Assembly: GCF_018143015.1 (NCBI RefSeq)
Contig: NC_054743.1
Span: 25,915,934 to 25,979,933, forward strand
Length of the DNA: 64,000 bases
DNA from: Lytechinus variegatus
Lineage: Eukaryota; Echinodermata; Echinoidea; Temnopleuroida; Toxopneustidae
Direction of reading: 5' to 3'
The notes under the pieces are model-generated. The model ran no database searches. It had not been told where the DNA came from and saw nothing but the letters and a program-made list of their open reading frames with translations. Below, piece by piece: positions 2,250-51,931 of this stretch (the first letter of the stretch is position 1; each line of letters starts with the position of its first letter). Position numbers and translations under genes: made by a program.

Positions 2250-2882
2250 TGGTGGCAGCTGAAACAAGTGATCGCTTTTGAAATGACAAGGATCAAGTAA
2301 CCAGCTACTGAGTACTGTAGTGATGGGAAGTAAACTGCATGTCTTTTTACCGAAATTCGCATGCTTCATAACCTACTTACTAACCCAACGGGTGCCCGCT
2401 AGCCCCGGCTATCGCATCGCTACTGTACCGTACTGTGCATACCCAATGCACTGTCACAGCAAATCACACAGTGTTGTGAGAAGGAGCGAGATGCTAACGG
2501 TAACTGTAAACAATCAAATATAGCCTGAATAAGTTATAACTGTGTTCAATCACTGGCACAGAGGTCTGCATCATAAGATCAACATACACTAAAAGTTGAT
2601 AAAACCTAAATTACTTAATTTTCTGGACTGGAGTGTGAACAATGAATTAATATTTTCCTAATATTAATTGTAAATCTGGAGTGTGAGAAGTGAGTGGGAG
2701 TGACCAGCATTTTCACTGCATGAAACACCTAATGACATTCACACAGGGCTGTGAGTGCGTTACAGGTATCATCACCAGTCGACCTGTGACTGTAAGGAGC
2801 GTTCACACGTGGATATAATCAGACATTAATATCTACACTCATTCATTTAAATACCTAATAATACGTACAGCGAACATACACA

Positions 2883-3720
2883 ATGAGTAGTGGAAAATAT
2901 CCAGAAATGAACTGGGAGGCAACAGACCTACCAGAAGAGTTCCAGCTTTTCAGACAAAGAATGGAGCTGATTCTAGCAGACCAAGACATAACTGATCAGA
3001 GAAAAGTGGCTATAAAAATCAAGATTGCTGTAGGCAATGAAGGCTTGCGTCGAATCAATGCATCGGGGCTATCAGAGACCGATAAAGAAAAACCGCAAGA
3101 GCTATGGAGACTATTAGAGGCACAGTTAAAGGTCAATATCAATTTTCGCATACACCGCTTAGAGCTAATGCGGTACAGGCAGAAACCAGATGAAACGATC
3201 GATGAATTCGTTACCAGGTGTAGGGACAAAGCCAAAAATTGCGATTTCGAGGAAGCTGAGTTAAATGAGCGAATCATGGAGTTAGTGATTGCGTCAACTC
3301 CAAGTCTCGAATTCCAAAAGTCATTGCTAGATCAACCGAAAGGTTACAAGGTCGAACAAATTTTGGTAGAAGGTCGTAAATACGAGGCAGTTGCTGCGAG
3401 CCGACAATGTCTTGAGACACTAGACCCTCAACAGAATATCGATTCGTTCAAGCGTAACCAGGGACGAAAAGCATGTGGTAACTGCGGACGTTTCCACAAA
3501 CCTCGTCAGTGCCCTGCGTATGACGATGAGTGCCGTGCCTGTGGCACCAAGGGCCATTGGGCCAAATTCTGTCGTAAATCGAAAAATGATCGTAGTCGTA
3601 AACAGAATCGTAGATCAGATGACCGAAGATCCGACACGGTATCTGATGATCGTAAACCAAGACAAAACAAATCACGATCAAAGTCGAAAAGTCGAAAGAG
3701 TAAACCAATAAGCGAAATGG
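2883..3720 (+). mobile_element. Gag part of the Mag/SURL-like element
   Basis: The gag part opens at an ATG at 2883. It begins with a helix-rich capsid-like region (phrases HRLELMRYRQKPDETIDEF and RDKAKNCDF). About residue 198 onward come two nucleic-acid-binding zinc knuckles, CX2CX3HX4C then CX2CX4HX4C, followed by an Arg/Lys/Ser-rich tail. Gag would form the virus-like particle and package element RNA. The double knuckle is typical of Mag-type Gypsy elements. Confidence 0.85.
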
Positions 3721-3889
3721 ACATAACACATGATACTACCACAGATCATGATCATTATCAATCTACAGATAGTCCATTCAACGTAGCACAATTCGACACC
3801 ATACACACTAGTGGACCACACACAGTTGTAAATCCAGAAGGTACTGTAGCATTTGCTAACATTGACATAATATGCCCACAGAGAGAAGG

Positions 3890-6800
3890 TCAACATAAGC
3901 TTTACCTAAAAGTGGACTCGGGGGCAAGTGCTAACACTATCACAGTACGTACCGCCAAAGCAATATACGGTCCAAAGTGGGAATCAGTAGTGAAACAAAC
4001 AACAATAAAACTTATAGCTTACGGAGAGACACAAATTCCATGTAAGGGTACACTAGACATAAAGTGTAGATACAAGAGTACAAAATGGTCAACACATACA
4101 TTCTATGTAGCAGATGTCAAGGGTCCAGCGATCCTAGGGTTGTTAGGTTGCACTGACCTTGGAATTATCACAATTCACTCAATGGACAACAAAACACCTA
4201 CAACCAATCCTAAACCTAAGCAAACACCTATCACAAGTGTAAGGGATCTCAAACAAGCATATCCGAATCAGTTTGACGCTATTGGTAGTTTCCGAGGGAA
4301 GGCAATGCTTCATATAAAGGATGATGCTAAACCTACCATAGACGCACCCCGCAAGTGCAGCGTACACTTGAAAGACAAAATCAAGGCGGAACTGGACAAA
4401 ATGGAGCAGCAAGGAGTCATCAGAAAAATTGAGTACCACACCGATTGGTGCAGCTCCATGACCACTGTTGTGAAGAAAGATGGATCCATCAGGATTTGTC
4501 TTGACCCCAGGAGGTTAAATGATGCCTTGAAGAGATGCCCACACAAGGTACCAACCTTGGAAGAGGTCCAACCTGTCTTCGCAGGAGCTCAGTACTTCTC
4601 TAAGTTAGACGCGAAGGCTGGTTACTGGTCGGTTCACCTAGCAGAGGAGTGCCAGGATCTCACCACATTTCGTACACCATTTGGAAGGTACTGCTTCCAA
4701 AGACTACCATTTGGGTTATGTACTAGTCAGGATATCTTCCAGCAGCATATGGATAGGATTGTCCAAAATGTGCCAGGCTGCATATGCATCGCAGATGACA
4801 TAGCGATCGTAGGAAGAACGGAGGAGGAACACGATAGGAATCTCTACCTACTCATGGAGACGGCAAAGCAAGAAGGCTTAGTTTTCAACAGCTCCAAATG
4901 TACTATCAAGAAGGAAGCCATCAACTTCTTCGGTTCCAAGTACACTAGATCAGGTATCTACCCAGATCCGAGCAAGGTAGAAGCTATCACATCAATGCCA
5001 TCACCCAAGGACAAAGAAGATGTTCAGAGATGCCTAGGATTATTCACATACCTAGCAGCATACATTCCTAACTTCTCAGAGAAGTCAGCGCCACTTCGAG
5101 AACTTCTACACAAGGAAGTACCATTCATCTGGGACGATGATCATGAACATTCCTTGAACAGCCTGAAAAGTGCAGTATCGTCAGGTGCATGTCTACAATT
5201 CTATGACCCAAAGAAAGAGACAACTCTTGAGGTAGATGCATCGATGAAAGGGCTAGGAGCATGCCTGCTCCAGCAAGGCAAACCAGTTGCATTTGCATCC
5301 AAAAGTCTTTCCACTGCACAATCCAACTATTCCAACATAGAGAGGGAAACCTTAGCCCTAGTGTTTGGTATTAACCGCTTCCATACATATCTGTTCGGAA
5401 GGAATTCACCGTCATAACAGATCACAGACCATTGGAAATGATATGGAAGAAACCTCTTAGAAGTGCACCACCACGTCTACAGAGATTGCTTATCAAAGTC
5501 CAAGGATACCGATTTCAAGTCAAGTATCGACCAGGAAAAGACATGATTCTTTCCGATACCTTGAGCCGACTTCCTAATCCCAAGGAAGCACGCGATGTTC
5601 CGCTAGATGTCAGAGTGGAATCCATCTGCTCTGAAGCCGAAGATTCGCACCAGATTGACTTGATATACTTCGGACAACACAAGAGAACAGAGCTTCAGAG
5701 AGAAACAGCTAATGATCCTGTTCTCAGATCACTATGGCAAATAGTCACTCAGGGATGGCCTGAGACCATCCAAGAATTGCCGACATCCCTTCGTCAATTT
5801 TGGTCTTACAGAGATGAAATTGGAGTATCACACGGAGTACTCTTCAAGGGAAGTCAAGTCATCATACCGAAGACACTAAGGAATGACATCCTTAGACAGC
5901 TTCATCTAGGACACATGGGAATCGAAAGCACGAGACGACTTGCTCGTGAGACAGTGTTCTGGCCAAACATCAACAAGGACATTGATCAGTTGATAAAGCA
6001 GTGTGAAACATGCCAGAAACACCAAGCAAGACAGCAGAAAGAGCCACTGCATCCCCATGATGTACCACCAGCACCATGGACCAGACTGGGAACTGACTTG
6101 TTCATGCTCAATAGACAAGAGTATCTACTCGTTACTGATTACTATTCCAAGTATCCCATCATTGCTAAGCTAACCGATACATCCAGTGCAGCTATAGCAA
6201 GACAGATGACGGGAATCTTCAGTCTGTTTGGTCCACCAGAAGAGATTGTGTCTGACAACGGTCCACAATTTGTCGGGAAACCATTCCAAGACATGTGCAA
6301 GAAGTGGAATATCAAGCACATCACTTCTTCACCGCACTATCCAAGATCCAACGGATTAGCTGAGAGAATGGTTCGTACAATCAAGAATCTGTTGACAAAG
6401 TGTTCTCAAACTAGCCAAGACAGTCAACTTGCCATGATGCACCTGAGAGCAACACCAGTTGACAATAACTTGAGATCACCAGCAGAGATGTTGTTTGGAA
6501 GACCCATCCGAACCACATTGCCAAGTCACTATCTTTCGAGAGATTCTACTGCCACCGAGTTTCTCTTGAATAGGCAAGACAAAATGAAGGAAGTGCATGA
6601 TCGACATGCAAGTTCTGATCTGCCACCACTGCATGTAGGACAGCCAGTGAGAGTTCTGCATCCAAGAGACAACACTTGGATACCAGCCAAAGTATCCAAA
6701 GTCTGTGAAGAACCTCGATCCTATGAAGTTTCAACGCCGAATGGAGGAATCTTGAGGAGAAATAGATCTCACTTGAGGGAAATTCCATCCACCAACCCAA

Positions 6801-6973
6801 CTCCAAAGCGTGTGAGGTTCGAAGAAGACCATTCCACAGAAACTCAACCAGAGGAAGACAACGTCCAACGAACACCAATGTCTAACTCTAATCAATCTCA
6901 ACAGACATACTCACAAACCACGAGGTCTGGACGCACTATTCGCAAACCAGAGAGATTCATGTTTGAAGATTAA
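3890..6973 (+). mobile_element. Pol part of the Mag/SURL-like element
   Basis: Domains in order: aspartic protease near 3905-4160 (motif VDSGAS, then ILGLLG); reverse transcriptase about 4350-4960 with the active-site phrase IADDIAI; RNase H about 5190-5560; integrase about 5890-6560 with an HHCC zinc finger (LGHMGI...CETCQ), then the catalytic aspartates in GTDLF and SDNGPQF and the glutamate in GLAERMV. The order PR-RT-RH-IN is standard for Gypsy. A basic C-terminal tail follows. The region is treated as a fossil with about one break. Confidence 0.88.
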
Positions 6974-32100: not shown

Positions 32101-32929
32101 GGGCCGTTCAGGCCCAGCTAGGTGATCTATGGAGTCCTCAGGTCGGAAGTACGGTGGTTTGGTTTCTACGGCGATGGCTCTCATCTTATCTCATGCTCAA
32201 CGAATCTTACTATCAAGAGGTATAGTCAAAGGCTAGCATTTTGTAAATTATAGCATAATTTTCTTTTTATTTATTGATTTGTCTCATTTACATGGGATGA
32301 CCTTGTCAGTGACTTGAACACTTTTAATCTGAAAGAGAGAGAGGAAAGGACATAGAAGAAAATAAGAGTGTAAAGAAATTGTGTACCGGGTAACTCTGTC
32401 CTCTTATTGGTAAATTAAATCGATTTTCCTAAGTTTTAGGTCATTTTGCTGAAGGGCTGAATGAATATATTTTGATATGTAAATAATCTTTGTCACTATA
32501 CATTGTTGTTCTTTCAGCTAAGCGTACCCCTGGCAGTTTGTTTTGGTAAGGGTACTGAAGGGAGTAATTGGCTGACTGGTTTTCTTCTTGAGAAGTGCCT
32601 TTCAAATCTATCGGTGTGGAGCGGTGAACATGAGCTAGCCAACGATACAGTGGATCTTCTAGTAGCTCTGGTGGAGAAAAAAGAAAGGTAAAGTTATCAA
32701 AATGAAAATTGGGGGTTTTTCGAGTTTGGAAATAGCAACTACACGTTATCTATGTTGGTGGTGATGATGTTGATGCTGTCCCTAGGTGATGATAAAAGCG
32801 GTGGTATTAGTGGTGGTGATGATGGTGGGGTAGTGTTGGCGGTTGTAGGGATGATGGTGGTGATGATGAAAATGGTGGTGATTGTGGTGAAGTTCCTTTT
32901 GGTGATGGGGAAGTTGATTCTGGTGATGG

Positions 32930-32967
<38 letters not shown>

Positions 32968-32998
32968 CTGGTGATGATGATGATGATGATGCTGGTGG

Positions 32999-33071
<73 letters not shown>

Positions 33072-33073
33072 GG

Positions 33074-33104
<31 letters not shown>

Positions 33105-36100
33105 GATGATGCTGGTGATGATGATGATGCTGGTGATGATGATGCTGGTGATGATGATGATGATGAAGATGATGCTGGTGATGATGATGATGCTGGTGAT
33201 GATGATGACGATGATGAAGAAGGTGATAAGGACAATGATGATGATGATTATACTGTACACTTAACACATTGCATCCCTTATCCCAAGATAGAGAAAACCT
33301 CTTGTCTCTGTACATTCTACCTGATGTCATATCTGTTGTTATCCCCAGATGTATACCTGCTCTGCAGTGTGAGAGCTTCTGGACCATAGCTAAGCAGCAT
33401 GCAAGCAGTTCACCACCCCTAGACCTTCTCCCTCTGGACATCAAATCAAATCTGATGAAAGCATTGGTCCTGGCAGGGTCATTAGCGAACAACCAAGAGA
33501 TCAAAGACAGGTTTATGCAGGAGGTAACTTTTTATATTCTCGTATTTGGTTTGCCGATTTTCATGTTTAGTTGGGTTGATTGTATTTGAATTAACATACA
33601 TGTATGAAAATAAATGAAATGATATTAACTACTAGGCATTTTTATGTAATAATCAACCCTTTTGCACGTCCAACCCCCATTTTTCATTATTTTTTTTTCA
33701 TTCACTGTGCTGCTGTAATACTCCATGACAAATTTAGAGCACTACAACTTTTCATATAACCAACATGTAAGAAGCAAAGATATATCACTTCAGGAAGGCC
33801 TAATATATGCATATTCTGGGTTTGGCTTTATAGAAGTGCACAAGCATTTCATAATCCTCCCAGGTACCAATTTAGCTCACCTGGATTGAATGTAGCACAT
33901 TGAGAATATATTTCTTTCTGAAAGGAAATAAATCCATGTCTGGGATTTCGAACCCACAAACCTCAGTTTCAAAGTTTGGAGAGTTATCCACTTAGCCTCA
34001 ATACACTGCTGTGTGACAAGCTCAGGGGATAAGTCTCCGGACTTTGAACCACAAGGTCCTGGGTTTGAATCCTTGCCATTCTCCACCCAGGTGCTGAAAA
34101 TGGTTACCCGTAGAAAGGACTTCCTTGAATGCTCAAACATCTGATTTGTGTAGCAGTGCTAAAGCTGGGATAATAATGTGCAGCACGTAAAAACATTATG
34201 TCAAGTGTTATGATTATATTATGATTATTAATTAAGTCAAGTTCAATACATCATCTACTGCACTTTCCTTTCCACAGGTCCTTCTCCCAGTCCAGAATCG
34301 CTTCAAGGGATTGGTCCAGCAGGAGGACTTTGTCAGAAAATCCCAGGATGAATCCCTCAAGTCAACCCTCTGCATGCTTCTGAGCCACATCCGGGGCATC
34401 GTCATGGGAACCCGCTTCAACTCTGCCGATGAGCTTTTTCTCTTCACCATGCCCCTTGCCACGGAGTCGGTTTCACTCATCAGGACCTATCATAATTGCT
34501 CTGATGTTGTCGAGATGGTGTTGGAAATGTTTCTTGAGATGGGCAGGAGACAGCTGACCTACCTCAATAAGGTTGGTTTGTGATGATGATCGATGATACT
34601 TAGTTACAATTAGGAATGACGATGATGATGATGATGGTGATGATGTATGAGGATGAGAAGGGTTATGATGATGGTGATGGGAGTAGTGATGATGAGAGTA
34701 GTGATCCTGATGGTGGCTTTGATGGTTGCTGATGACAGTGAAAATACTTGATATTTTTTTAAAGTAACAGGACTTCAAAGCAAAAGGAATTCACACCTTA
34801 CTTTTTTTAACTCTCTAGATGTTCAAACTTGGTCACTCTATTGTTCTGACCTTGACTGCCTGGACATACACGTAACAAAGAATTATGGCTGTCACTGGCA
34901 TTGTCAATGCTCCTGGGGACCGTTTCATCAACATTTTTGTCTGACAAGTTGTCAGATCTGACATCTTTCCTTGATTCTGATTGGCTGAGAGGCACTGTTA
35001 CTATGGTAACTGTCGGATAAAATGGGACTTGTAGGATAAAACGTCCGACAAGTCCTTTCATGAAACGCTCCCCTGGGCTTTAACCTGGCCACCACGGTGA
35101 TGCACAGCCATTCCCAGGAATAAATATTCCACCCCATACCCATTCACTACTCTTGCGTCAAGTGCAATTATAATGTGAATAGATTTCCCATGGTTTGAAC
35201 TGATGACCCTCTAACTGCAAAGCAAGAGTTAGAACCACTAGACCGTAATGCATCAAGATCAACAGAATGTGGCCTGGCTGGCAGAAGGATGTCAGAATTT
35301 CAATTCAATTTGGTCATGTTGGTCAGGAAGAATGGCATTTAACCTGTGCATGTTTTGTACCTTGTGCTTGAGCTAATAACCAGAATTGAAATTCACACTG
35401 CACACACACACTGAACCTACCCCCCCTTCTGCTAGCCAGTTGACAAACTGGTCTGTCAGGTAGAACTATTCTTTTACCCAAACTAAGATATTTGAACTTG
35501 TCTTCTTTCAAACCCTCCTCCCAGGCAAACTCCTTCAAGCTGTACGAGATCTCATTGTCCCTCCTGGAGACCTACAACCAGTGCAATCTGGGTAAGCAGA
35601 CGCACGATGTCCTAGCGGAAGAAGAGCAGTACCACGACATATCCATCCTGATTGAATTACTTACAGAGATCATCTCCAAAGACATGACTGATTTCCTGCA
35701 TGATGGTAAGTCCTGGGGGTGTTCCAGAAAGCTGTTTGTAAATTTATGAATGGCTCTACGCTCTACCAGTGATACCTTCTTATGGTACAAATGTAAATTA
35801 ATGAAAAATAGATTAGCACCCAAGAATATGTTCCAGTCGTTCGTGAATTCATTTGCAACTTATGATCACCTTTATAGAATATTGATGTCAGTAGAGCATA
35901 AAGGTAGCAAATTCGTGTACATGGTTTACAATGAACTTAGAGGGTAGGATAATTTTACAATTGATTGTTACTCATTTATGTGTGATACATTTCACTGATC
36001 AGCCTACTTAACTCTTGCGTGTGTGCCTTGTAGCAAGATTTTTACTTTTACTCCTTCGTGTACCATACTGTGTCGGTGACAAAGAACTCTTGTATGTGCG

Positions 36101-39100
36101 TGTGGGTGTGTGCGTGCGCCTTGTAGCAAGATTCTATTTATACTCCTACTAGTACCATACTGTGTGGGTGACAAAAAAAATATAGAGGGTCTTACAGACA
36201 CATTTCTGAATAGATTGGTTTTGATAGCACATCCTGGTCTTTGTTCATGGCATAGCTATCCCAGTTGACTTTAAAAGATATTAGGTACCTGACCCACTTC
36301 AATGAAAAGAATAATGATCGTCATTTACATTTTGATGAGCCAACTCAACTTGCTTGATATTTAAAAGGCGCAACTGTCAGGCAGAACAACAATATTTTTT
36401 ATGATGTCTGTTCTCATAGTAAATTGCAATCACTTTTCAAGTAAATATGTCTCCCCCACCCCCCTCCCTCCAACACAGATGCCAGTTGTGATAACGATCT
36501 CAAAACGAGTTTGAACAGAATCCCTGAAAATGACCAGCCAAGTTGTATGTTCATATGCCAGGTGATTGTTGTAGAAATTGTGTAATTGCTGAGTGATGCA
36601 AAATAAGCATGACATTCTACTGAGGTGTAGGGTCTTTTTCCAGGCGATTAGTATATGCTGTGCCCATTTGCTTACACGTGGTTTACTATTAAATATGTAA
36701 TTTATCTCCATCTTAGATGAGCCAAATCCAGCAAGCAATGTTTCTGCCCCTGATGTTGTCCTGTATGGCCTCAACCTTCTTCTACCTCTTATTAATCATG
36801 AACTTCTCAGGGTAAGACTTGTAGCCATTGTACCAAATAAAAAAAAACAAAGTGAGATCTGAAGGTTTCGGAGGGGATGGGAAATTTGATGAGGATGAGT
36901 TTTGCGGAAACCCCAACTTTGTCCTAGCTTAACCCTAAAATGGCCTCAACATTTTCTGCGATCATTCTTTTTTTTGACCGCGCCACTCACAGAATTTATA
37001 CTTTTAAGTCTCGCGCATATTTTGAGACCAAATTTATGACACCCAGGTACGCGGTTCCGAAATTACGCAACATTTTGTAAGTGCATGTCAGACCAAAATT
37101 TTTTCCAAAACGTGATTTTGTGTACAAAGTCAATGCAAATTGAGTTTTCTCATCTTATTCATAAAGATATGATTATTTTTTACTTTAAACAGCTGAAATC
37201 AATTGATTTTAGCATAATTATGCTTCAAAAAGGTTGTGCAATAAATCTGGTCAAAAAACAAAAAAAACAAAAGGTTGAAAAACAAAGAAATACATTAGAA
37301 ATTCATAATACAATAAAATACATAAGAAATTGATTTCCAAACCAAAGTTTTTTTCAATTGCGATTGTTAAGAATGCTACAAAGAATATTTTTACCAAAAA
37401 TTAGCATTCTAGGAGCTTTATTTAGTGAATTAGAGCAAAAAGTATGATTTATGCATAAATTAGCATAATTAATTCATATAAAATAAAATCTCATTATTTT
37501 GAAAAATTTCACCCTACAGCCTTGTAGATTACATAGCACACTACCAGCGTGCAAATTTTTGAGGCGCTCGCGTGATCAGCGGCCAAGATCTCAGGGGGGG
37601 GGGTGAATCAAACCCCCCCGGCCACAAGAACTGCCAAAAAGCCTGGCCTAGTTAGGGTTAAGTCTCACTCTTAACGAAGAACGTTGCATGATAATTGAAA
37701 TGTCAACCCTATCAAAGTGAGCTTTGAAAATCTCATGACATTAGATTCTGTTGTTGAAAGTTTAGAAAAGCAGAGAATCATTGAAATATTTAATCTCAAG
37801 AGTCGTGTCTTTTCATTCTCCAGTTTCCAACCCTATGTCAGCAGTACTTTCGGCTCGTCACATCCATCGGTGAGCTGTATCCTGAACGTCTTGTTCGCCT
37901 ACGGGGGCGCTCTTCCAGAACCTCATGGCGTCGATGGAGGCAGGACTGACAGAGTTTGGTAGCGACGTTTCCTGTATGACCCTAGATGCCTTGACGTCCA
38001 TGGCCGAGCACTGTGCTAAGAATCGTCAAGTGGTGGCGGGCTCTCAGCTTGATCATGCCATGGAGCACTTTCTAAGGGTAAGGCTATTGTGGCACTCAGG
38101 GAGCATTTCATGAAAAGTTTAGTCAGCCAATCAGATGCAAGGATTTCTAGTAGCTTATAAAGTATTGTTATTAATAGTAATAACTTCTGACAATGATGAT
38201 ACTATTTATAATAGATATAATAATAATGAAAACAGGTTGATAATAACTAAATGAAAATAAAACAATTATATTAACAATAATAATAATATAGTAAAATATC
38301 AATAAAAGCAGTTATACAAATAAACAATATTAATGACAAAGATGATAAAGACCAAATACATGTATAATGATAAAATTGATAACTATATTGAGTAACTCGC
38401 TTGTTCATATGTTCACCTGTTTACATGATTTATTTATTTTGACTATGGAATATGAGAATTTATTGCAAGATTAATTGCAACCAAGATCTTTGCTATATAA
38501 TATATTATTCTGTTCTCTTATCTATTTAGTATTAAGTTCTATATTGTATGTCCTGCCTCGGCAGTAATAAGCCAGGACCTGGGCTACTTTTACTTCCTTT
38601 GTTAATTGTGTTTGTAAACTACTATGTAATTGTTTTATTTTATATGTTATCTGATCCTTTATGAATATTAAAATAAAGTGATACAAAATCAAAATTTGAT
38701 GGTGATAATCACTGACATTGTGCTTCTTAAAACACTCCACATGGATGTCGCTTTATAGACTATAAGTATTCATACTGTTTTCATTATATTTTAAGGGCAT
38801 ATTCTGAATTATTTCCCTCACGTTTCATTTATGCTAATTTATTCACTCATTCATTCATTCACTCACTTCCTCACTCACTCATTCATTCATTCATTCATTT
38901 ATGCTGTTACATATATGAATAATTGTAAAAGAATTTTAAAAGCAATTACATTTATCTATTAGTTATTTCCCTTTAAGGATAGCCAAGAATTGTAAAGAAC
39001 ATTCCAGGATGTCTTTTTATTATGCAGGCCTTGCCTATTTTAAAGGCCAAGGAGTTTTATTGTTGAATAAGGAAAAGCCAAACAATAGAATTGTATTGGT

Positions 39101-42100
39101 AGTGGAAATGAATAGGCTTAGGTATTTTGTTTACACTGTTGATTTCAATGAGGTCATTCAAGAGTGTTCTGGATTTTGACTGCTCCTGAAAGGAGAAAGT
39201 TCTTTTGGAAGACAATTCTAGAAGCTTGTAGATTAGTCGGAATTTGAGAATGATCTAGAACACTTGTAATTAGTATAAAGCTGCAGATTTTTCAAGATGA
39301 TCATCACATCATATTAGATCACTTGATCATCACATCATATGAGAGCAGGAGATCACATCATATTAGATCACACCATCACATCATATGAGAGCAGGAGATC
39401 ACATCACATCATATGAGATCACTTCACCAGATCAGATCAGAGTAGTTTATGCATCAATGAACTGTTTGCAGTTATTTTGAGAAATTATCAGTTCTCATCG
39501 AGATCATCAACATCATCAACCTGTTCAATGAACACGCTTCAACCCATGGATTACTGAAATTGACTGTTAATCATCATCAACATCGTCTTCACGGACATTT
39601 CAACTCGTTGCAGTGACTCTTATTATTCATCGGACTTCAACATCAGTTTCATCATCGCCATCATTGTGAATTTTCGCCAGTCAACTGGGATTTTATCATT
39701 TGGATTATTACTTGGATATAGCATCATCACTTCGGGATTTTACATCGGACACTTCAAGAGATTTATGTAAGATCATTATTTGTTTTATTTATGTATAATT
39801 ATTTCCTGTAATAAAAAAAAAAGGAAATTTAAATAAAATTTAATTGTTATTTGTTGCAGTATCGTAACAAATAATTTTGGGGGCTTGTCCGGGAAACAAA
39901 AGCCAATTTGTACAAGCCAATTTGAAACTAAAACAAGTTGTCCGGGAAACGAAAACCAAATTTGTACAAGCCAAGGCAATTTGAAACGAAAACCAAAATT
40001 GTATAAGCCAATTTGAAATTAAAAACAGTTTTTCAGGAAACAAAAGCCAATTTGAATTGGAAACATTTTGGAAAGTTCTAGAATATACTGTACTGTGTTA
40101 TTACGTGCTTGTATTTGTGTATATTCACTATGGCTACATTTGATGTTGAAGAATTTCTTGCAATGACAGAATTGTCATATGATCATTTGAAGTCACTGAA
40201 GAAAGATGATTTGATAACAATTTGTGATCATTTGGGTGTATCTCTAGCCCCAGGTTTAAAGAAGGCAGAGATAATTGACTTGTTAGCTAGTCACATGAAG
40301 CTTACAGAGGGGTCTGAAACTTCTATCAATATTTCAGATGATGCTCAGATTCAACTTGCAAAATATGAAATGGAAATGAAAATGAAAGAAAAGATTGAAA
40401 TGGAGAAAATAAACATTGAAAAGGAGAAAATGAGATTGGAGTACCAGTTAAAGTTGAAAGAAATGGAGTTAGCTCATGCAAATACTAACTCTACTAAAGA
40501 TAAATCTCCCAAGGCTTTGATGTGGCGAAAAATATTCGCCTTGTGCCAAAATTTGATGAAGAGGGAGTTGATACATATTTTGTGTCATTTGAAAAAGTGG
40601 CCAAGAGACTGAATTGGCCCGAGGAATACTGGACTCTTCTCCTTCAAAGTGTTTTTGTTGGAAAGGCTGCAAAAGTCTATTCTTCGCTCTCTGAAACGCA
40701 ATCATGTGACTATGCTACAGTAAAAGAAACAATTCTCAATGCATATGAGTTGGTACCAGAAGCGTACAGACATAAATTTAGGAACATGCAAAGACAATCA
40801 GGCCAGATTTATGTTGAATTTGCTAGGGAACAAGAGATGATGTTCGATAAGTGGTATAGATCACTGAAAGTTGACAAAGATTTTGTTCACCTTAGGGAAG
40901 TTGTCCTCCTAGAAGAATTCAAAAAGAGTCTTCCTTTTGGCATTAAATCTCACTTAGATGACCATAGAGTTACTGAAGTCAGTAAAGCAGCCATAGTAGC
41001 TGATGAATTTGAGGTCACACATAAAGGTAGTGGAGATAGGCCTCCTTTCAAGAATTATTGGAAAAAGAAAGGTAAAGGGTCATTTGAATCCCACAATAAA
41101 CTAGTGAGGGAAAATATGCAAGCAAGGATAAAGACGCTAACAAGAATCAGGCTAGTGGGGGCACAGAATCAACCAAAAGGTCTGAGAGTCGTAGTTCCAA
41201 AATTTGTACTCATTGTCATAAATCGGGACATTTGAAAGAATCATGTTGGAAATTGGTTGGAATGCCAACCAAAACTAAGAAAGACATGGGTTTTGTCAAG
41301 CAAACAAGTGTTCCCTCGATGGAGTTTGTTCCATCAGAGCCCAATCGAGATGTTGAGAGTGTTTCTCTAGAATTTGCTGATAAAGTCAAGCAGGTTGATG
41401 AAACTTTTAGAAGTTTTTTGCATGATGGTGAAGTATCCCCTTGTTCGACTGGTGCTGCTGGTAGGTCAGTGGTGATCCTTAGGGATACAGGGGCTGCACA
41501 GTCCCTGATGGTGCCAGGTGATTCGGCTCTTCCTCTGGAGAGTTCAGAAAAGGCCAACGTCTTAGTTCAAGGTATTGGCCCAAATTTCATGTCGGTTCCT
41601 TTGCATAAGGTCGACTTAAAGTGTGACCTAGTTAGTGGTCCTGTGACTGTTGGTGTCGTTCCAGAATTACCCATGAAAGGTGTTGATTTCTTGTTAGGTA
41701 ACGACTTGGCTGGAGATAAAGTTGTTGCATCTCCAGTGGTTTCGGAAAAGCCCGTTGAGGTAGCTGAAACTAAATTGTTGCAGGAAGATTTTCCAGGGAT
41801 TTTCCCGGATTGTGTTGTTACTAGGTCTCAGACTCGTAGAGCTGAAAAGGATGATGCGGAATCTGCTGATGTAGAGGAGAGTACTGATGTCTGGTTAGCT
41901 GAAACCTTTTTCAAGGATTTGAATGGGGATAGTGTTGAAGGCTCTGTTGCTAACAATGATAGTTTGTTTAGTAAATCCTCCCTTGTACAGGCACAACAGG
42001 CAGACCCAGAATTAAAAAGCTTGTCACAGAAAGTATGTTCTGTGGCTGAGGCTGATAAGGTTCCTGAGTGCTTTTATGTCAAAGATGACATTTTGATGAG

Positions 42101-45100
42101 GAAATGGAGACCTCCCGGAGACCAGCTGATGAAGATTGGTGTATAATTCACCAGGTTGTAGTTCCTCCTTGTTACCGCACAGATATTCTGAAAATGGCTC
42201 ATGAGTTACCTATGGCAGGTCATGTCGGTATTCGGAAGACAGAAGATAGAATTATGAGGCATTTTTATTGGCCTAAGATGCACAAAGATGTTGTGCATTT
42301 CTGTAAGACATGTCACACATGTCAGATTATTGGTAAGGCACAGCCTTCTATCAAGCCTGCTCCATTGATACCAATTCCTGCATTTGATGAACCTTTTACT
42401 AGGGTTCTTGTTGATTGTGTCGGACCCTTACCCAGAACGAGGTCGGGTCACAGATTTCTCCTGACGATTATGGACTTGTCTACACGGTTTCCAGAGGCGA
42501 TACCTTTGAGAAGTATCACTGCAAAGACAGTGGTGCAGGCGTTAGTGCAGTTTTTCACTAGGTACGGTCTGCCGAAGGAAATTCAATCTGATCAAGGGTC
42601 AAATTTCATGTCAGGAATATTTCAGCAAGTTATGAAGGAGTTGGGAATAAAGCAGATCAAGTCCTCTGCTTATCACCCACAGTCCCAAGGAGCGTTAGAA
42701 CGCTATCATCAGACTTTGAAGACCATGATTAGGGCTTATTGTGAAGACTATCCCGATGACTGGGATAAAGGGATCTCATTCCTATTGTTTGCAACTAGGG
42801 ATTCCCCTAATGAGTCCACAGGTTTCAGTCCATTTGAATTGGTCTATGGTCATGAGGTTAGGGGTCCTCTAAAGCTTATCAAAGAGAGGTTTATGGTTCA
42901 GGATGATGATGTAAACCTTCTAGACTATGTGTCAAAGTTTAGAGAAAGGCTCTCAAAAGCTTGTGATGTGGCTAAGGAACACTTGAAAGAGTCGCAGGGA
43001 AAAATGAAAGCTCAAGCTGACAAAAATGCAAAAGAGCGAAGTTTCAAGCCTGGAGACAAAGTGTTAGTGTTGTTGCCTTTGCAAGGTGAGCCCTTGAAAG
43101 CTAGGTTTAGTGGTCCCTACATAGTCAAAAAGAAATTGAATGATGTCAACTATGTGATCAGTACCCTGATCGAAGAAAGTCTCAAAGAGTTTGTCATGTA
43201 AACATGTTAAAAGAATACTTTGAGCGAGAGGCTAGTCAGCCAATAGGTACAACACAGGTCAAAGAAGAAGAAAAACATGTAGATGTTCATGAAGAAGAAT
43301 GCTATGAAAAGACAGATAATGAATTGTCTTATACAGATGTATCTAAGAACGAACCATGTGGTATAAAGTTGTCTAACTCAGAGATGTTAGGAAATATGGA
43401 TGAGGCATTAAAACACCTGCCTGAAGATCAGAGAAATGATATATCTGGCCTGTTAAGAGAATATGAGAATGTATGTAAAGACAAACCAGGTCGTACACCT
43501 TTAACTGTACATGATGTAGACGTAGGTGATGTAAGACCTATCAAACAGAATCCTTATAGGCTCAATCCAAGCAAGTTGGAAATGGTGAATAAGGAAATAC
43601 AGTTTATGTTAGATAATGACATAATCGAACCGAGTCAGAGTAGTTGGAGTTCTCCCATTGTAATGGTTCCAAAGCCAGACGGCTCTCAGAGATTTTGCAT
43701 TGATTACCGGAAGGTAAATGCAGTAACTAAGACTGACTCGTATCCAATTCCTAGGTTAGAAGATTGTATTGATAGGGTTGGAAATTCTGCCTATATCACA
43801 AAGATAGACTTGCTTAAAGGATATTGGCAAGTGCCACTGACTGACCGAGCCAAAGAGATATCAGCCTTTGTCACACCCGAAGGCTTATTTCAATGCAAAG
43901 TCATGCCTTTTGGAATGAAAAATGCCCCAGCAACCTTCCAAAGGTTGACAAATCAAGTGATTGCCGGACTTGACAATTGTGTCGTATACATTGACGACAT
44001 CCTAGTATACAGTGATACTTGGAATGATCATTTGAATCATTTGCGAGCACTGTTTGACAGGCTGGACAAAGCCAATCTAGTAGTGAATCTGATGAAAAGT
44101 GAATTTGCCAAGGCAAAGGTCACATATCTTGGTCATGTGGTTGGTCAAGGGCAAGTGCTACCAAGAGAAGCCAAGATACAAGCTATCTTAGACTTCCCAA
44201 TTCCCACAACTAAGAAAGAATTGCTCTTAGGTATGAGTGGCTTCTACAGGAAATTTGTTCCAAATTTCAGTACAGTGGTTAGTCCTCTGACAAACCTGCT
44301 GAAGGCAAAAGTGAAGTATGTTTGGTCTGACGAATGTCAAAGATCATTTGAGAAATTAAAGGCCATTTTGGTGAATGAGCCTATTTCGGCAGCTCCAAAC
44401 TTCACAAAGCCATTCAAAGTAGCAATTGATGCATGTGATGTTGGAGTAGGAGCAGTATTGCTCCAAGAAGATGAAGAAGGCATCGAAAAACCAGTGTGCT
44501 ACTTCTCTAAGAAACTCAATCGGTTTCAAAAGAAGTATTCAACTATTGAAAAAGAGGCCCTGAGTCTCGTACTAGCCCTTCAGCAGTTTGAGGTGTATCT
44601 AACCAATGGAGAGATTACAGTCTATACAGATCACAATCCTCTTGTGTTTTTGGAGAAATTCAAAACAAAGAATCAAAGACTGTACAGATGGAGCCTAATG
44701 CTCCAACCATTCCCTTTGAAAATTGTACACATAAAGGGAAAGAATAATGTAATTGCTGATGCTCTATCAAGAGTATAAAAACTGAAATTATTCATGATTT
44801 TGACCAAGTGTGTCATTTGAAGAAAACATCTTTGATGTTCATTTATTTTAACATGTTCGTTAAGTACTATATCTTTGTACACGATAACTGTAAATGATTT
44901 ATCAAGATGACTTTGAACAGTTAAAAGAAAAATAATCATAAAGAAACCTTTACTACGGTAAAGCTTTCTTTTCCCCGGTGGGGGAGGTGTTACATATATG
45001 AATAATTGTAAAAGAATTTTAAAAGCAATTACATTTATCTATTAGTTATTTCCCTTTAAGGATAGCCAAGAATTGTAAAGAACATTCCAGGATGTCTTTT

Positions 45101-48073
45101 TATTATGCAGGCCTTGCCTATTTTTAAAGGCCAAGGAGTTTTATTGTTGAATAAGGAAAAGCCAAACAATAGAATTGTATTGGTAGTGGAAATGAATAGG
45201 CTTAGGTATTTTGTTTACACTGTTGATTTCAATGAGGTCATTCAAGAGTGTTCTGGATTTTGACTGCTCCTGAAAGGAGAAAGTTCTTTTGGAAGACAAT
45301 TCTAGAAGCTTGTAGATTAGTCGAAATTTGAGAATGATCTAGAACACTTGTAATTAGTATAAAGCTGCAGATTTTTCAAGATGATCATCACATCATATTA
45401 GATCACTTGATCATCACATCATATGAGAGCAGGAGATCACATCATATTAGATCACACCATCACATCATATGAGAGCAGGAGATCACATCACATCATATGA
45501 GATCACTTCACCAGATCAGATCAGAGTAGTTTATGCATCAATGAACTGTTTGCAGTTATTTTGAGAAATTATCAGTTCTCATCGAGATCATCAACATCAT
45601 CAACCTGTTCAATGAACATGCTTCAACCCATGGATTGCTGAAATTGACTGTTAATCATCATCAACATCGTCTTCACGGACATTTCAACTCGTTGCAGTGA
45701 CTCTTATTATTCATCGGACTTCAACATCAGTTTCATCATCGCCATCATTGTGAATTTTCGCCAGTCAACTGGGATTTTATCATTTGGATTATTACTTGGA
45801 TATAGCATCATCACGTCGGGATTTTACATCGGACACTTCAAGAGATTTATGTAAGATCATTATTTGTTTTATTTATGTATAATTATTTCCTGTAATAAAA
45901 AAAAGGAAATTTAAATAAAATCTAATTGTTATTTGTTGCAGTATCGTAACAGTTCACATAATCATCCATTCATATTTTTATTTTGGGGGGAATTGCCTAG
46001 ACTCAATACTGTCACCAAAAAAAATGGCTCGAAGAATTTCAAGGATCTTTCTCCAATTCTTTTAATTGGCTTGTGTCTGACTCATGTCTTTACAGAAATA
46101 CATGTATGGAGGATTGGAAAGAATTAAGTTGCTAAACATGTAGACTGTGCCATGTCTTTCACAAGGGAATCCCTCAAGCATCTTATCATTGCCTATCATA
46201 TTATCATTTACAAAACATTGGGGAATGGGGGAAGCATCTGTGCAAGACAGGTTACACTTTTATTGTGTGACTCCTGCTAAATGAAGTGATATGGGTCCCG
46301 TAACACAAAGGTTAGCGATTGATCGTACGCCTGATTTTCACGATTGATTGTACATTGTAGTCAATGCAATCAACCGTAGAAAAATGTTCTACGATCGTTG
46401 CTAAGCTTTGTGTTACAGGCCCCTGGTTTTCATTGCTGCAGTCACACCAAGGAAACAGACTCCAAATGGATGGATGGTATGTCAAGTAATAAAGTAACAA
46501 CTTTATTTGGTGTGAAGTTGGTTCCTCTGAGTGATTGGAGCACTAGATTAAACCCCTAGGAGTTTTCCATGAAAAGGCATGGCCATCATTTACCACAGGA
46601 TTTTGTGAAAGCATGTTGGGTCTCTCTGTTGAATTCCATTGAGAGGTTTGTGATAGATCCACAATTTACATTTTTTGATTATTTTTTTTCTTCAAATTCT
46701 TGTAGGTTTTATTTGATACCATCGTGAGGCAGAGCTTTGATATGGATATCATTCCAGCGGCTGGAGTTGCTTTCTACACACTCATATGTAGCCATCATGT
46801 AAGTCCATCTGTGTTTCTACAATCATCTATCTTTCTTATTTCTTCAAACCTGTAGTATTTCCATCACAATAGTGTTCTGTCTTCCGTTTCTTTAAATCTT
46901 TTGTTTCATTCCTTCCAACATGGAGTCTTTCCAGTCCATAGTCATTTGTCCATTATTTCATTCTTTTATAGTCTTTATCTTGTTTTCATACCCTAGACTT
47001 CTAGTCTGTAGTATTTCATGCTTAAGCTGTAGACCTGATTAAGATATAATTCCATTTACTGTTTGCTATACTAAATTTAGGAGGAATAACCTTTCTATAA
47101 AAACTGTTCAGATGAAACAAATTTTCTCCACATACTATGTTAACTTTATTAGAGTGGTAAAGCTAATTTGGCAAGGGAATAAAGATGTTAGTTACTAATT
47201 CTGTGACAGTTGATTTCTCCTTTGTATATCTTTAATATCCTACTCCAAAATATGTGCAGAAGTTTGATGGAATACAGCCTTTAGTCTCCTGAATATAATT
47301 ATATAATATTGACTAGCCTTGAGGGGAACATCAAATATATTGCCAGCAAATGAATCATATTGGCCCGAGTCTTTAGACGAGGGCAATATGGGTCATTTAA
47401 GGGCAATATATTTGATGTTCCCCAAAAGAAGAGCTAGTCAATATTTTTATTATCATCCAAATCAGATATCTAGAGCAAAAATCATGATAATGGGATATTT
47501 CTTTTAAAAATAGAGTTCTATTGTGTCATGTTAATATCGGTCTAGGCTCTGCACTTTACCATTATGACGTACTTGCAAGCGCTCGGATCCAGCGTTGTCT
47601 TTATTATGACGTATATTGTTGGTGCGCGGATCCTTGAAGCGTATCTCTTTATTATACGCATCCTAAAATGCCCGGATGTGAGACCAGGGAAAATACAAAG
47701 GTATATTTTGTGTCGTCTCTTCATGCAAAGTAAATACGCGCATTGAGACCGAGCAAAATGCAAACAATATACCTACGCTTCTGATATTCAGAAAATGTAG
47801 TACAGTTTTGTAAATGACCAGCTCAGATGTCTGATACGGAGGATAATTGTTTTTATTTCCTTTCACCATATCCAGGAAAAGTACAGTGAGTTGGTTAACA
47901 GCATCCTCCGTCACCAACCAGATCCTTCCAACTATCAGCGATTAGCTACAGCTTTCAGTCAGCTTACACCAAACAATGAAGTCTTCAATCTGGACCGTGC
48001 CCATCGTATCAAGTTCCAGTCCCAACTGGAGAGTTTCCTAGTCAATGTCAGACCGTTGCTTATTGTCAAGTGA
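29023..48073 (+). CDS. XPO4: Exportin-4, C-terminal two thirds (13 exons)
   Basis: Importin-beta-family transport receptor; in mammals it exports eIF5A and SMAD3 and imports SOX factors, using RanGTP. Exons: 29023-29199, 29674-29822, 30329-30465, 31497-31674, 32060-32219, 32518-32687, 33349-33523, 34278-34571, 35525-35705, 36717-36811, 37824-38077, 46706-46798, 47876-48073. All have AG/GT borders and compatible phases. The protein follows vertebrate XPO4 without gaps from its DKDDMVYMEAY region to the C-terminus (YADQLISV, RHQHQQ, GHLLADD, LANDTV, CESFW, AEEEQY, DVVLYG, FPTLC). The sum is 2261 nt, one short of 754 codons; the missing base lies in a G run in exon 37824-38077. N-terminal exons (about 400 residues) were not found and should lie upstream. 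The gene is a HEAT-repeat protein, so no catalytic motif is expected. Confidence 0.95.
29674..29822 (+). CDS. XPO4: XPO4 exon with acidic linker
   Basis: Encodes an acidic stretch (EDDEDEEINEVEEDDRD) followed by ADQLISV, matching the acidic EEISELQEDDRDQ region of vertebrate XPO4. The acceptor could be at 29673 or six bases later at 29679; both keep the frame. Ends in phase 2 at AA/GTAAGT. Confidence 0.9.
30595..31117 (+). mobile_element. TTAA-flanked hairpin MITE in an XPO4 intron
   Basis: TTAA at both ends, then AGGAAACCAATACCC and its near complement gggtttggtttcct. The arms match over about 125 bp. Each arm contains tttcatcaaaatcggtta, the internal phrase also present in the differently ended MITEs at 9018 and 57065. 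Non-coding. It lies between XPO4 exons 30329-30465 and 31497-31674. Confidence 0.75.
32740..33255 (+). repeat. (GAT)n trinucleotide repeat, about 500 bp
   Basis: A long imperfect gatgatgatgctggtgat array in the XPO4 intron between 32687 and 33349. It gives open frames on both strands that would read as poly-Met/Val, poly-His or poly-Ser. It ends less than 110 bp before the next exon's acceptor. A second short (GAT)n patch lies at about 34574-34735. Confidence 0.95.
33845..34008 (-). repeat. tRNA-derived SINE, minus copy of a head-to-head pair
   Basis: On the minus strand: GAGGCTAAGTGGATAAC (A-box-like), then GGGTTCGAAATCCC (B box), then a body with CCAGGTGAGCTAAATTGG and ACCTGGGAGGATT. The same body occurs in the plus-strand copy beginning at about 34012, so the two are one family in opposite orientation. 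Lies in an XPO4 intron. Confidence 0.7.
34012..34200 (+). repeat. tRNA-derived SINE, plus copy of a head-to-head pair
   Basis: An A-box-like aagctcaggggataag and B box GGGTTTGAATCC, followed by a body with CCCAGGTGCTGAAAATGG and ttccttgaatgctcaaac, and a tail with gggataataatgtgc. It shares the CCAGGTG...AAATGGTACC core with the minus copy next to it. This is a SINE rather than a tRNA gene, because the acceptor stem does not close. Confidence 0.7.
34912..35076 (+). mobile_element. GTTTCAT-type MITE, copy in XPO4 intron
   Basis: Ends CCTGGGGACCGTTTCATCA and the complement of ttcatgaaacgctcccctgg, with inner inverted words tccgacaagt/acttgtcgg. The copy at 51236-51398 is about 90 per cent alike. 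Non-coding. The right end abuts a SINE at 35080. Confidence 0.75.
35080..35258 (-). repeat. tRNA-derived SINE of a second type
   Basis: The minus strand reads GGTCTAGTGGTTCTAACTC (A box), then CAGTTCAAACC (diverged B box), 30-40 nt apart as in tRNA genes, then an unrelated body. Its tail meets the MITE at 34912-35076. Confidence 0.55.
36473..36600 (-). repeat. Diverged fragment of the 400-bp TTAA repeat
   Basis: Reading the minus strand, the phrases caattacacaatttct, ttcagggattctgttc and tgagatcgttatcac match the interior of the repeats at 20135 and 52973 with many changes. An old, truncated copy just upstream of an XPO4 exon (36717). Confidence 0.5.
36928..37662 (+). mobile_element. MITE, CTTAACCCTAA ends, in XPO4 intron
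   Basis: Ends CTTAACCCTAAAATGGCC and the complement of ggcctagttagggttaag. The interior is AT-rich with a poly-G/poly-C hairpin (ggggggggg...cccccccgg) near 37595-37620. Non-coding, about 735 bp, between XPO4 exons 36717-36811 and 37824-38077. Confidence 0.6.
37824..38077 (+). CDS. XPO4: XPO4 exon with a one-base frame slip
   Basis: The exon begins FPTLCQQYFRLV in one frame and continues FQNLMASMEAGLTEF...HAMEHFLR in another, both matching vertebrate XPO4 in order. The frame changes within or beside the five-G run at 37903-37907. A sixth G would restore RLRGALFQNLM, the same length as the vertebrate protein, and would make the 13-exon sum divisible by three. Exon borders are good (ctccag/TTT, AGG/gtaagg). 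A missed base in a homopolymer is the simplest cause; a true mutation is the alternative. Confidence 0.9.
38905..39869 (+). repeat. 5' LTR of the Gmr1-like element
   Basis: 965 bp with TGTTAC/GTAACA ends. It contains an internal series of atcacatcatatgagagcag repeats (about 39300-39420) and an AATAAA-like A-rich stretch near its 3' end. Confidence 0.92.
40130..41250 (+). mobile_element. Gag part with a SCAN-like domain
   Basis: The likely start is the ATG at 40130. First comes a SAP-like N-terminal segment (LSYDHLKSLKKDDLI...), then a Glu/Lys-rich helix, then a region strongly resembling the vertebrate SCAN dimerisation domain (phrases EAYRHKFRNMQRQSGQIY, VEFAREQEMMFDKWYRSL, LREVVLLEEFKKSLP). 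Near 41200-41250 there is one zinc knuckle (CTHCHKSGHLKESC). The SCAN domain of vertebrate zinc-finger proteins is thought to derive from a Gmr1-like gag, so the likeness supports the family call. Treated as a fossil. Confidence 0.85.
41460..44778 (+). mobile_element. Pol part, order protease-integrase-RT-RNase H
   Basis: Protease near 41470-41710 (LRDTGAAQSLM, DFLLGNDL). Integrase about 42150-42900: HHCC finger (AGHVGIRKTEDR...CKTCHTCQ), catalytic aspartates in LVDCVGP and SDQGSNF, glutamate in GALERYHQ. Reverse transcriptase about 43540-44240 with YIDDILVYS. RNase H about 44400-44770 ending IKGKNNVIADALSRV. The C-terminal RNase H directly precedes the 3' LTR leader, with no second integrase, so the order is real and not an insertion of two elements. 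Confidence 0.88.
44988..45951 (+). repeat. 3' LTR of the Gmr1-like element
   Basis: About 964 bp, nearly identical to the 5' LTR. Preceded by ggtgggggagg, the polypurine tract. Confidence 0.92.
46293..46423 (+). mobile_element. Short MITE, GTAACACAAAG ends, in XPO4 intron
   Basis: 131 bp. GGGTCCCGTAACACAAAGG on the left pairs with aagctttgtgttacaggccc on the right, followed inward by gcgattgatcgtac / ctacgatcgttgct. A near-complete hairpin with a short loop. Non-coding. Confidence 0.65.
46706..46798 (+). CDS. XPO4: XPO4 exon after the element-bearing intron
   Basis: Opens after ttcttgtag and closes before gtaagt: LFDTIVRQSFDMDIIPAAG and AFYTLIC, matching the vertebrate AAGEAFYTLVC stretch. 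It lies 8.6 kb downstream of the preceding exon because the Gmr1-like element occupies the intron. Confidence 0.93.
47310..47443 (+). mobile_element. Short hairpin element in the last XPO4 intron
   Basis: ttgactagcc...ggggaacatcaaatatattgcc on the left pairs with ggcaatatatttgatgttcccc...gctagtcaat on the right, with a second short hairpin inside. Non-coding and probably a MITE; no target duplication is clear. Confidence 0.5.
47876..48073 (+). CDS. XPO4: XPO4 last exon with stop
   Basis: Opens after catatccag; EKYSELVNSILRHQPDPSNY and QRLATAFSQLT align with the vertebrate AEYSELVETLLSSQQDPVIYQRLADAFNKLT end, and the protein closes VNVRPLLIVK (vertebrate NVGGLLCVK). TGA is at 48071-48073. The last 84 coding bases recur, decayed, 217 bp downstream. 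Confidence 0.95.
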   Translation, partial: EKYSELVNSILRHQPDPSNYQRLATAFSQLTPNNEVFNLDRAHRIKFQSQLESFLVNVRPLLIVK

Positions 48074-50887: not shown

Positions 50888-51931
50888 GTCTCACCTGCAT
50901 AGCAGAGTGAGACTATAGGCGCCGCTTTTCCGACGGCGGCGGCGTCAACATCAAATCTTAACCTGAGGTTAAGTTTTTGAAATGTCATCATAACTTAGAA
51001 AATATATGGACCTAGTTCATGAAACTTGGACATAAGGTTAATCGATTATCACTGAACATCCTGCGTGAGTTTTATGTCACATGACCAAGGGCAAAGGTCA
51101 TTTAGGGTCAATGAACTTTGGCCGAATTGGGGGTATCTGTTGAATTCCCATCATAACTTTGAAAGTTTATGGATCTGATTCATGAAACATGGACATAATA
51201 GTAATCAAGCATCACTGAACATTTTGTGCAAGTTTCAGGGGAGCGTTTCATCAATATTTTCATCCGACAAGTTGTCAGATCTGACATCTTTCCTTGATTC
51301 TGATTGGCTGAGAGGCACTGTTCCTATGGTAACTGTCGGATAAACTGGTACTTGTCGGATAAAATGTCCGACAAGTCCTTTCATGAAATGCCCCCCTGGT
51401 CTCATGACTAAGGTCAAAGGTCATTTAGGGTCAATGAACTTTGGCCGATTTGGGAGTATCTATTGAATTACCATCATAACTTCGAAAGTTTATTGGTCTA
51501 GTTCGTTTAACTTGGACATTAAAGTAATCAAGTATCACTGAACATCCTGTGCGCATTTCAGGTCACATGACCAAGGTCAAAGGTCAATGAACTTTGGCCG
51601 AATCGGGTGTATCTGTTGAATTACCATCATAACTTTGAAAGTTTATGGATCTGATTTATGAATCTTGGACATAAGAGTAATCAAGTATCACTGAACATCC
51701 TGTGCGAGTTTCAAGTCACATGATCATGGTCAAAGGTCATGTAAGGCCGATGAACTTTGGCCATGTTGGGTTTTTTTGTTGAATAACCATCATATCTCTG
51801 TAAGTTTATTGGTCTAGTTCATAAAAAGTGAACATAAGAGTAACCATATATCACTGAACATCTTGTGCGAGTTAGAGTAGTTTTCAAAGTCAGCACTGCT
51901 GCTATATTGAACCGCGTGATGCAGGTGAGAC
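50888..51931 (+). mobile_element. Inverted-end element with five internal 155-165-bp tandem units
   Basis: GTCTCACCTGCAT at 50888-50900 and its exact complement at 51919-51931. Just inside the left end is a GC-rich gcgccgcttttccgacggcgg. The body is five head-to-tail units marked by catcataac(tttgaaag) near 50983, 51150, 51471, 51625 and 51788, each with cttggacataa, atcactgaacatcctgtgc and catgaccaaggtcaaaggtc. A GTTTCAT MITE (51236-51398) has inserted in the second unit. Non-coding. Confidence 0.75.
51236..51398 (+). mobile_element. GTTTCAT-type MITE inserted in a tandem-unit element
   Basis: Ends CAGGGGAGCGTTTCATCAA and the complement of tttcatgaaatgcccccctg. The inner body is nearly the same as the copy at 34912. 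On both sides the host unit continues (tgcaagtttca / gtctcatgactaagg), so the insertion is clean and later than the host repeat. Confidence 0.8.

Follow-up and report, generated by a model that had tools for sequence, protein, structure and literature searches.

The window analyzed here, a stretch of 64,000 nucleotides from the echinoid Lytechinus variegatus, contains an LTR element at 38905-45951 of the forward strand, on which all of its features described below also lie. The element is real, and the coordinates given for it in an earlier note on this DNA were exact. The 5′ LTR (965 bp, 38905-39869) and the 3′ LTR (964 bp, 44988-45951) aligned over 966 columns with 5 mismatches and 3 gap letters (99.17% identity) and have the termini TGTTAC...GTAACA, that is, TG...CA ends. 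Two further features were recognized by the appearance of the sequence: a primer-binding-site-like stretch (39878-39895), which begins with TGG 8 bases past the 5′ LTR and which is putatively tRNA-Pro-like, and a polypurine-tract-like stretch (44977-44987), which has one T inside and abuts the 3′ LTR. The direct repeats of the leader (families D5, D6, and D8; 39885-40070) take in part of the primer-binding-site-like stretch.

The coding region starts with a gag N-terminal piece (40130-40612), recognized from its open reading frame, homologues, models, and fold matches. The gag capsid piece (40504-41235) lies in a different frame and was recognized from its open reading frame and Pfam; it comprises both capsid lobes, a fold taken from the model of a related gag, P0001. 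The C-terminal lobe (40756-41025) matched the SCAN model PF02023 (E 9.5e-11, 41.8 bits, curated cut-off 27) and is followed by a CCHC zinc-knuckle motif (41205-41246). No Pfam model matched the protease piece, and the protease was called because there is a DTGA aspartic-protease motif (41484-41495) and because in two relatives, P0021 and P0067, a single protein contains SCAN, the knuckle, and DTGA. The integrase (42089-43201) has the HHCC motif (42200-42322), the DD35E residues (42413, 42590, and 42698), and a C-terminal domain, and matched Integrase_H2C2 (PF17921, E 1e-20) and rve (PF00665, E 1.7e-13). The last frame (43144-44778) holds the integrase end, the reverse transcriptase (RT; RVT_1, PF00078, E 1.1e-36) with YIDD at 43987-43998, and RNase H at about 44398-44712 (PF17917, E 6.6e-35; PF17919, E 1.7e-32). 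Pfam matches and motifs together bear out what the earlier note had read here, a single LTR pair enclosing gag, protease, integrase (HHCC and DDE), RT (YIDD), and RNase H. The SCAN, integrase, and RT matches all exceed chance by a wide margin. SCAN precedes the zinc knuckle, the protease motif, the integrase, and the RT, and is not joined to a C2H2 zinc-finger array.

A second gypsy element in the window, at 2862-6973, served as a control. It showed the standard order (gag, protease, RT, RNase H, and integrase) and had no SCAN match up to E 0.1; a single frame change was seen near 5393-5408. Elsewhere in the window, a long TGA trinucleotide repeat (32924-33248) produced spurious Asp-, His-, Ile-, Ser-, and Met-rich open reading frames, and a tandem repeat of ~153 bp was present in 2.9 copies (51415-51873).

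Sibling copies and the interrupted frame

Searches of the own genome covered the 869.6-Mb assembly in 33 contigs, in which the window is G000:C4:25915934-25979933. The window integrase gave 1534 candidates; the 111 that were scored, the window included, were 97-100% identical. Clean LTR pairs were found in 12 of 20 sampled loci (L046, L047, L049-L056, L060, and L061), with 94.5-100% LTR identity; in the remaining 8, the LTR pair was absent or short, or other repeats were mixed in. The high identity of the integrase copies speaks for the youth of the element. Among 18 window-family loci examined, 15 siblings had both ends located, and 10 of these showed a 4-bp target-site duplication, for which the chance is about 0.5% per locus. 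No duplication was found in the remaining five, of which three (L048, L057, and L058) resemble tandem arrays in which window-family copies have LTRs in common. The open frame around the integrase of one further copy (G000:C5:43104652-43105707) extends to 2911 residues, almost double the usual length.

Two properties of the window copy were absent from the earlier note. Its coding region consists of five open pieces lying in successive frames, separated by four changes that all go in one direction. Three of these separate the N-terminal part of gag from the capsid, the capsid from the zinc knuckle, and the linker from the integrase, and the fourth falls near the integrase end. In addition, no target-site duplication was found flanking the element. 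Relatives cross the places of these frame changes in one frame, and of the 110 scored integrase copies of the own genome other than that of the window, 67 had an open frame of ≥1540 residues (about 1,560-1,610 among the unbroken siblings shown). A programmed frameshift as the source of the frame changes was rejected on both of these grounds.

Six other copies matched from the first residue of the window integrase piece, with open frames of 869-898 residues, and three others matched through its last residue; from these sequence boundaries, the former are read as having the third frame change of the window in common, and the latter as having the fourth. Some of the frame changes would thus be either inherited or recurrent errors. 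A doubtful but not negligible explanation is that all four are assembly indels and that the copy is really intact. The uniform direction of the changes speaks for it, with a fifth such case in the window's other gypsy element, as do the two sites seemingly common to other copies, which could be recurrent error, and the C and G runs of three, which are somewhat rarer in the window than under a Markov model (315 vs. 360 and 306 vs. 350 expected). However, runs of four were near expectation (79 vs. 84 and 75 vs. 77), 67 of the 110 other copies are open within the same assembly, and the common sites are equally explained by inheritance from a defective source copy. An assembly-wide homopolymer deficit was also considered and is unclear from the C and G runs of the window, threes being somewhat rare and fours near expectation. 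As assembled, the element is interrupted; it would need the proteins of sibling copies and is probably non-autonomous.

With regard to the flanks, a genome search with the 5′ LTR alone returned 1604 candidates, of which 40 were scored; the closest of these was the element's own 3′ LTR (99%), and the next was 97% identical. A single insertion, either atypical or with its flanks altered, is therefore the simplest reading, and recombination between two copies as the cause of the missing duplication is weakened by the same observation.

The SCAN-like gag

The predicted structure of the related gag P0001 is a two-lobe capsid in which the C-terminal lobe is the SCAN region. Against solved SCAN domains, no significant similarity was found with the window gag alone (E 0.39), the first gag profile (E 0.042), or a divergent gag (E 0.35); only a wider gag profile was significant, and its best PDB matches were four SCAN domains. 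Together with the Pfam match, this ranking bears out the SCAN resemblance claimed for the gag. The gag N-terminus was modeled as a helical domain of ~60 residues followed by a predicted long helix; for the SAP-like N-terminus proposed along with the SCAN resemblance, the models offer a weak HeH/SAP/Rho-N-like shape.

Of 1076 candidates in a protein search with the gag, 845 reached E ≤ 0.01. SCAN was already annotated by precomputed matches in 119 of the best 120; the exception was a Lytechinus pictus protein (93% identity over 57%). Other named relatives came from Ptychodera flava, Mytilus galloprovincialis, Solemya velum, Crassostrea virginica, and Holothuria leucospilota. When 35 of the 120 listed relatives were aligned and compared with Pfam at E ≤ 1, SCAN was found in all 35, zf-CCHC in 8, Retrotrans_gag in 2, and Ty3_capsid in 1.

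Fold comparison of the gag model gave no Foldseek match at E ≤ 0.001, and the structural match with the highest Z was a Copia capsid (rmsd 11.4 Å). This match, despite its rmsd, and the copia-like domain order are what a true Ty1/Copia element, for which integrase-first order is normal, would have in its favor. Against such an element, the RT and RNase H matched RVT_1, RT_RNaseH, and RT_RNaseH_2, no copia-type RT model matched up to E 1, and the best solved structures were those of Ty3 for both the RT (E 3e-88) and the integrase (Ty3 Gag-Pol integrase region, E 9.5e-37). We consider a Copia origin extremely improbable and treat the element as gypsy-type below.

Domain order in the genome, in relatives, and in trees

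A SCAN profile search of the own genome gave 441 first-look candidates, and all of the best 150, which were scored, exceeded the cut-off. Two samples of loci were read. The first consisted of 20 SCAN loci (every seventh row among rows 1-134 of the scored table) and showed the order SCAN-(protease)-integrase-RT in 20 of 20 cases (18 window family, 2 divergent). The second consisted of the 30 top-scoring SCAN rows, with integrase after SCAN in all 30 (13 window family, 17 others). Five rows were common to both samples, and the integrase was downstream of SCAN in all 45 distinct loci, a non-random set drawn from the best-scoring 150 of the 441 candidates; RT followed the integrase in the 20 loci that were followed further. 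The search for the same order in other copies, which the earlier note had proposed, thus found it throughout these samples.

Protein relatives of the RT pointed in the same direction. The search gave 3851 proteins among 7975 scored, and the best 120 include proteins named from Astyanax mexicanus and Paramuricea clavata; two others are named from a bivalve's bacterial symbiont and from a ciliate, probably through contamination. At least part of an integrase core was found in 45 of the best 120, upstream of RT in all 45 and downstream in none, and no core was found in the other 75. The integrase C-terminal tail preceded YxDD in 90 of the 120 (Paramuricea included) and followed it in none, with 30 undecided; these counts hold for the closest relatives in a search that admits proteins of ~299-952 residues, the frequency of the standard order further out being outside its scope.

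Three contigs from other sources carry Gmr1-like elements (L001, 1-6369; L002, 1-6797; L003, 1-5472) in which gag to RT is a single open frame with integrase first (1586, 1718, and 1244 residues, respectively; the L003 frame begins inside gag). L001 is NZ_JASJAV010000046.1, filed as a Breoghania sp. MAG. The presence of these elements in Breoghania and Heimdallarchaeota (B3_Heim) MAG contigs probably reflects animal DNA contaminating prokaryote bins. Outside the own genome, L001 was the row nearest to the window in the RT and integrase trees (identity: gag 53%, integrase 70%, and RT 64%) and has the same order; unlike the split window copy, it is open in one frame.

One might still regard the integrase-first order as a chance rearrangement, a nested insertion, or an assembly artefact at one locus, given the interrupted frame and the missing target-site duplication of the window copy and the apparent tandem arrays of the family in this genome. 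Chance rearrangement is ruled out because the integrase follows SCAN in 45 of 45 loci and RT follows it in 20 of 20; the open frames of the three foreign contigs and the closeness of the two LTRs, which most simply indicates one insertion, also argue against any such local event, the probability of which we judge to be negligible.

In 25-row RT and integrase trees, the window, L001, and P0204 stood apart from the other 21 integrase-first rows. Trees of 29 rows were composed of the window, seven integrase-first loci of the own genome, L001-L003, 10 of the 120 RT relatives, and eight standard-order rows. These trees separated integrase-first from standard rows with support of 94/93 (RT) and 91/70 (integrase) relative to a small standard-order panel, L005-L011 and the window's other element, in which L005-L011 cover RT partly. 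Long branches were seen for L005, L006, and the window's other element. One change of order was needed on each tree.

The placement of L001 differed, being with the window family in the integrase tree (100/98) and with other relatives in the RT tree (83/73). This minor conflict, and a domain order unlike that of standard gypsy elements, are compatible with a recombinant that took its RT from one gypsy clade and its integrase from another. Both trees nevertheless group all integrase-first rows together and the window with its siblings, and we hold a recombinant to be very improbable. RT and integrase accordingly fall in one clade and not in unrelated ones. As for the placement among Ty3/Gypsy elements that the earlier note had sought, a single integrase-first clade was recovered, in which the Gmr1 side is represented solely by unnamed integrase-first relatives.

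Gmr1 assignment and the SCAN-type capsid

Gmr1 was reportedly named by Goodwin and Poulter as a deuterostome group. The sequence evidence supports the assignment to the Gmr1 type of this gypsy element with integrase before RT and a SCAN-matching gag, as made by order and by the unnamed integrase-first relatives. The Gmr1 reading of the earlier note is upheld with these caveats, the integrase being upstream of RT and the RT, RNase H, and integrase all gypsy-type. We are highly confident that the window holds a copy, young and probably non-autonomous, of a Gmr1-type Ty3/Gypsy family with many members in an echinoid genome, with its integrase-first order inherited from the ancestor of the clade. 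By homology, the LTR would drive a transcript, from which siblings with an unbroken frame would make one polyprotein (N-terminal domain, long helix, two-lobe capsid, zinc knuckle, protease, integrase, RT, and RNase H). The capsid lobes would assemble the particle, with a dimer contact provided by the SCAN-like C-terminal lobe; the protease would release the enzymes; and RT would copy the RNA from the tRNA-primed binding site to the polypurine tract, all likewise by homology. The DD35E integrase would then insert the DNA and leave 4-bp duplications such as those seen in siblings. The window copy, interrupted as assembled, would rely on sibling proteins, and the integrase-first order would have been gained once in the clade ancestor and then inherited.

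Already in print are the Gmr1 order, the derivation of SCAN from a Gmr1-like gag, and Gmr1 elements in protostomes; the present element is a well-documented new example. Passages of PMC2582038, PMC2774666, PMC6238403, and PMC8220671 describe Gmr1 as a gypsy lineage with copia-like order, and Gmr1 is listed with clades found in several phyla in a passage of PMC8556966. In the portions of PMC2582038, PMC8220671, and PMC4131045 on which the comparison by description rests, the lineage of Gadus morhua Gmr1 and its relatives likewise has a protease-integrase-RT-RNase H pol, a gypsy-type RT, and a SCAN-matching gag, with SCAN in over 50% of frog Gmr elements (PMC4131045); the echinoid host and the divergent integrase-first SCAN lineages within one genome distinguish the present case. 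Compared in the same manner, the crustacean elements GyRex4, Gychoro2, GyMaja1, and GyLiva4, named the first Gmr1-like ones in protostomes in a passage of PMC3587641, and the added annelid family LGF3 (a passage of PMC8220671) are, like the window element, invertebrate Gmr1 or Gmr1-related, but have protostome hosts.

That SCAN derives from the capsid portion of a Gmr1-like gag is attributed to Emerson and Thomas 2011 in passages of PMC3424704, PMC4592553, and PMC3406341. The SCAN fold is described as common to Ty3 capsid lobes in a passage of PMC6525542, and according to a passage of PMC11011659, human SCAN proteins escaped the capsid profiles used there. The SCAN of tetrapod zinc-finger proteins matches the C-terminal capsid lobe of the element in sequence; in the window it is part of a full capsid within a gag polyprotein with pol downstream, whereas the tetrapod SCAN joins C2H2 zinc fingers. 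With the present family, the Gmr1 group gains a young, high-copy echinoid member with many open copies, which is also an invertebrate set for testing the SCAN dimer contact against its capsid ancestor. Within this one genome, the 45 of 45 loci read tie the SCAN-type capsid and the integrase-after-gag order together.

The least expected part, and a mildly new one, is the coexistence of divergent integrase-first SCAN-gag lineages in one genome. At least three further lineages were found (L012-L016, L027-L029, and L031-L039), which are only 23-29% (SCAN region) and 39-45% (integrase) identical to the window family and have integrase after SCAN in 17 of 17 loci. The integrase preceded RT in L042 and L045, which represent two of these lineages and were the only two read far enough, and both branched first among the integrase-first rows in the RT tree and in the integrase tree. 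If this placement holds with reference elements, we suggest, tentatively and with somewhat less than even confidence, that the SCAN-type capsid and the switch of order had one common origin before Gmr1 spread through bilaterians and cnidarians; the vertebrate SCAN would then have been captured once, and late, from a capsid type of great age. As a minor observation, four SCAN matches lie near one contig end (G000:C8:42.6-43.4 Mb), three of them in short frames (147-213 residues), and the fourth, L021, is followed by an integrase.
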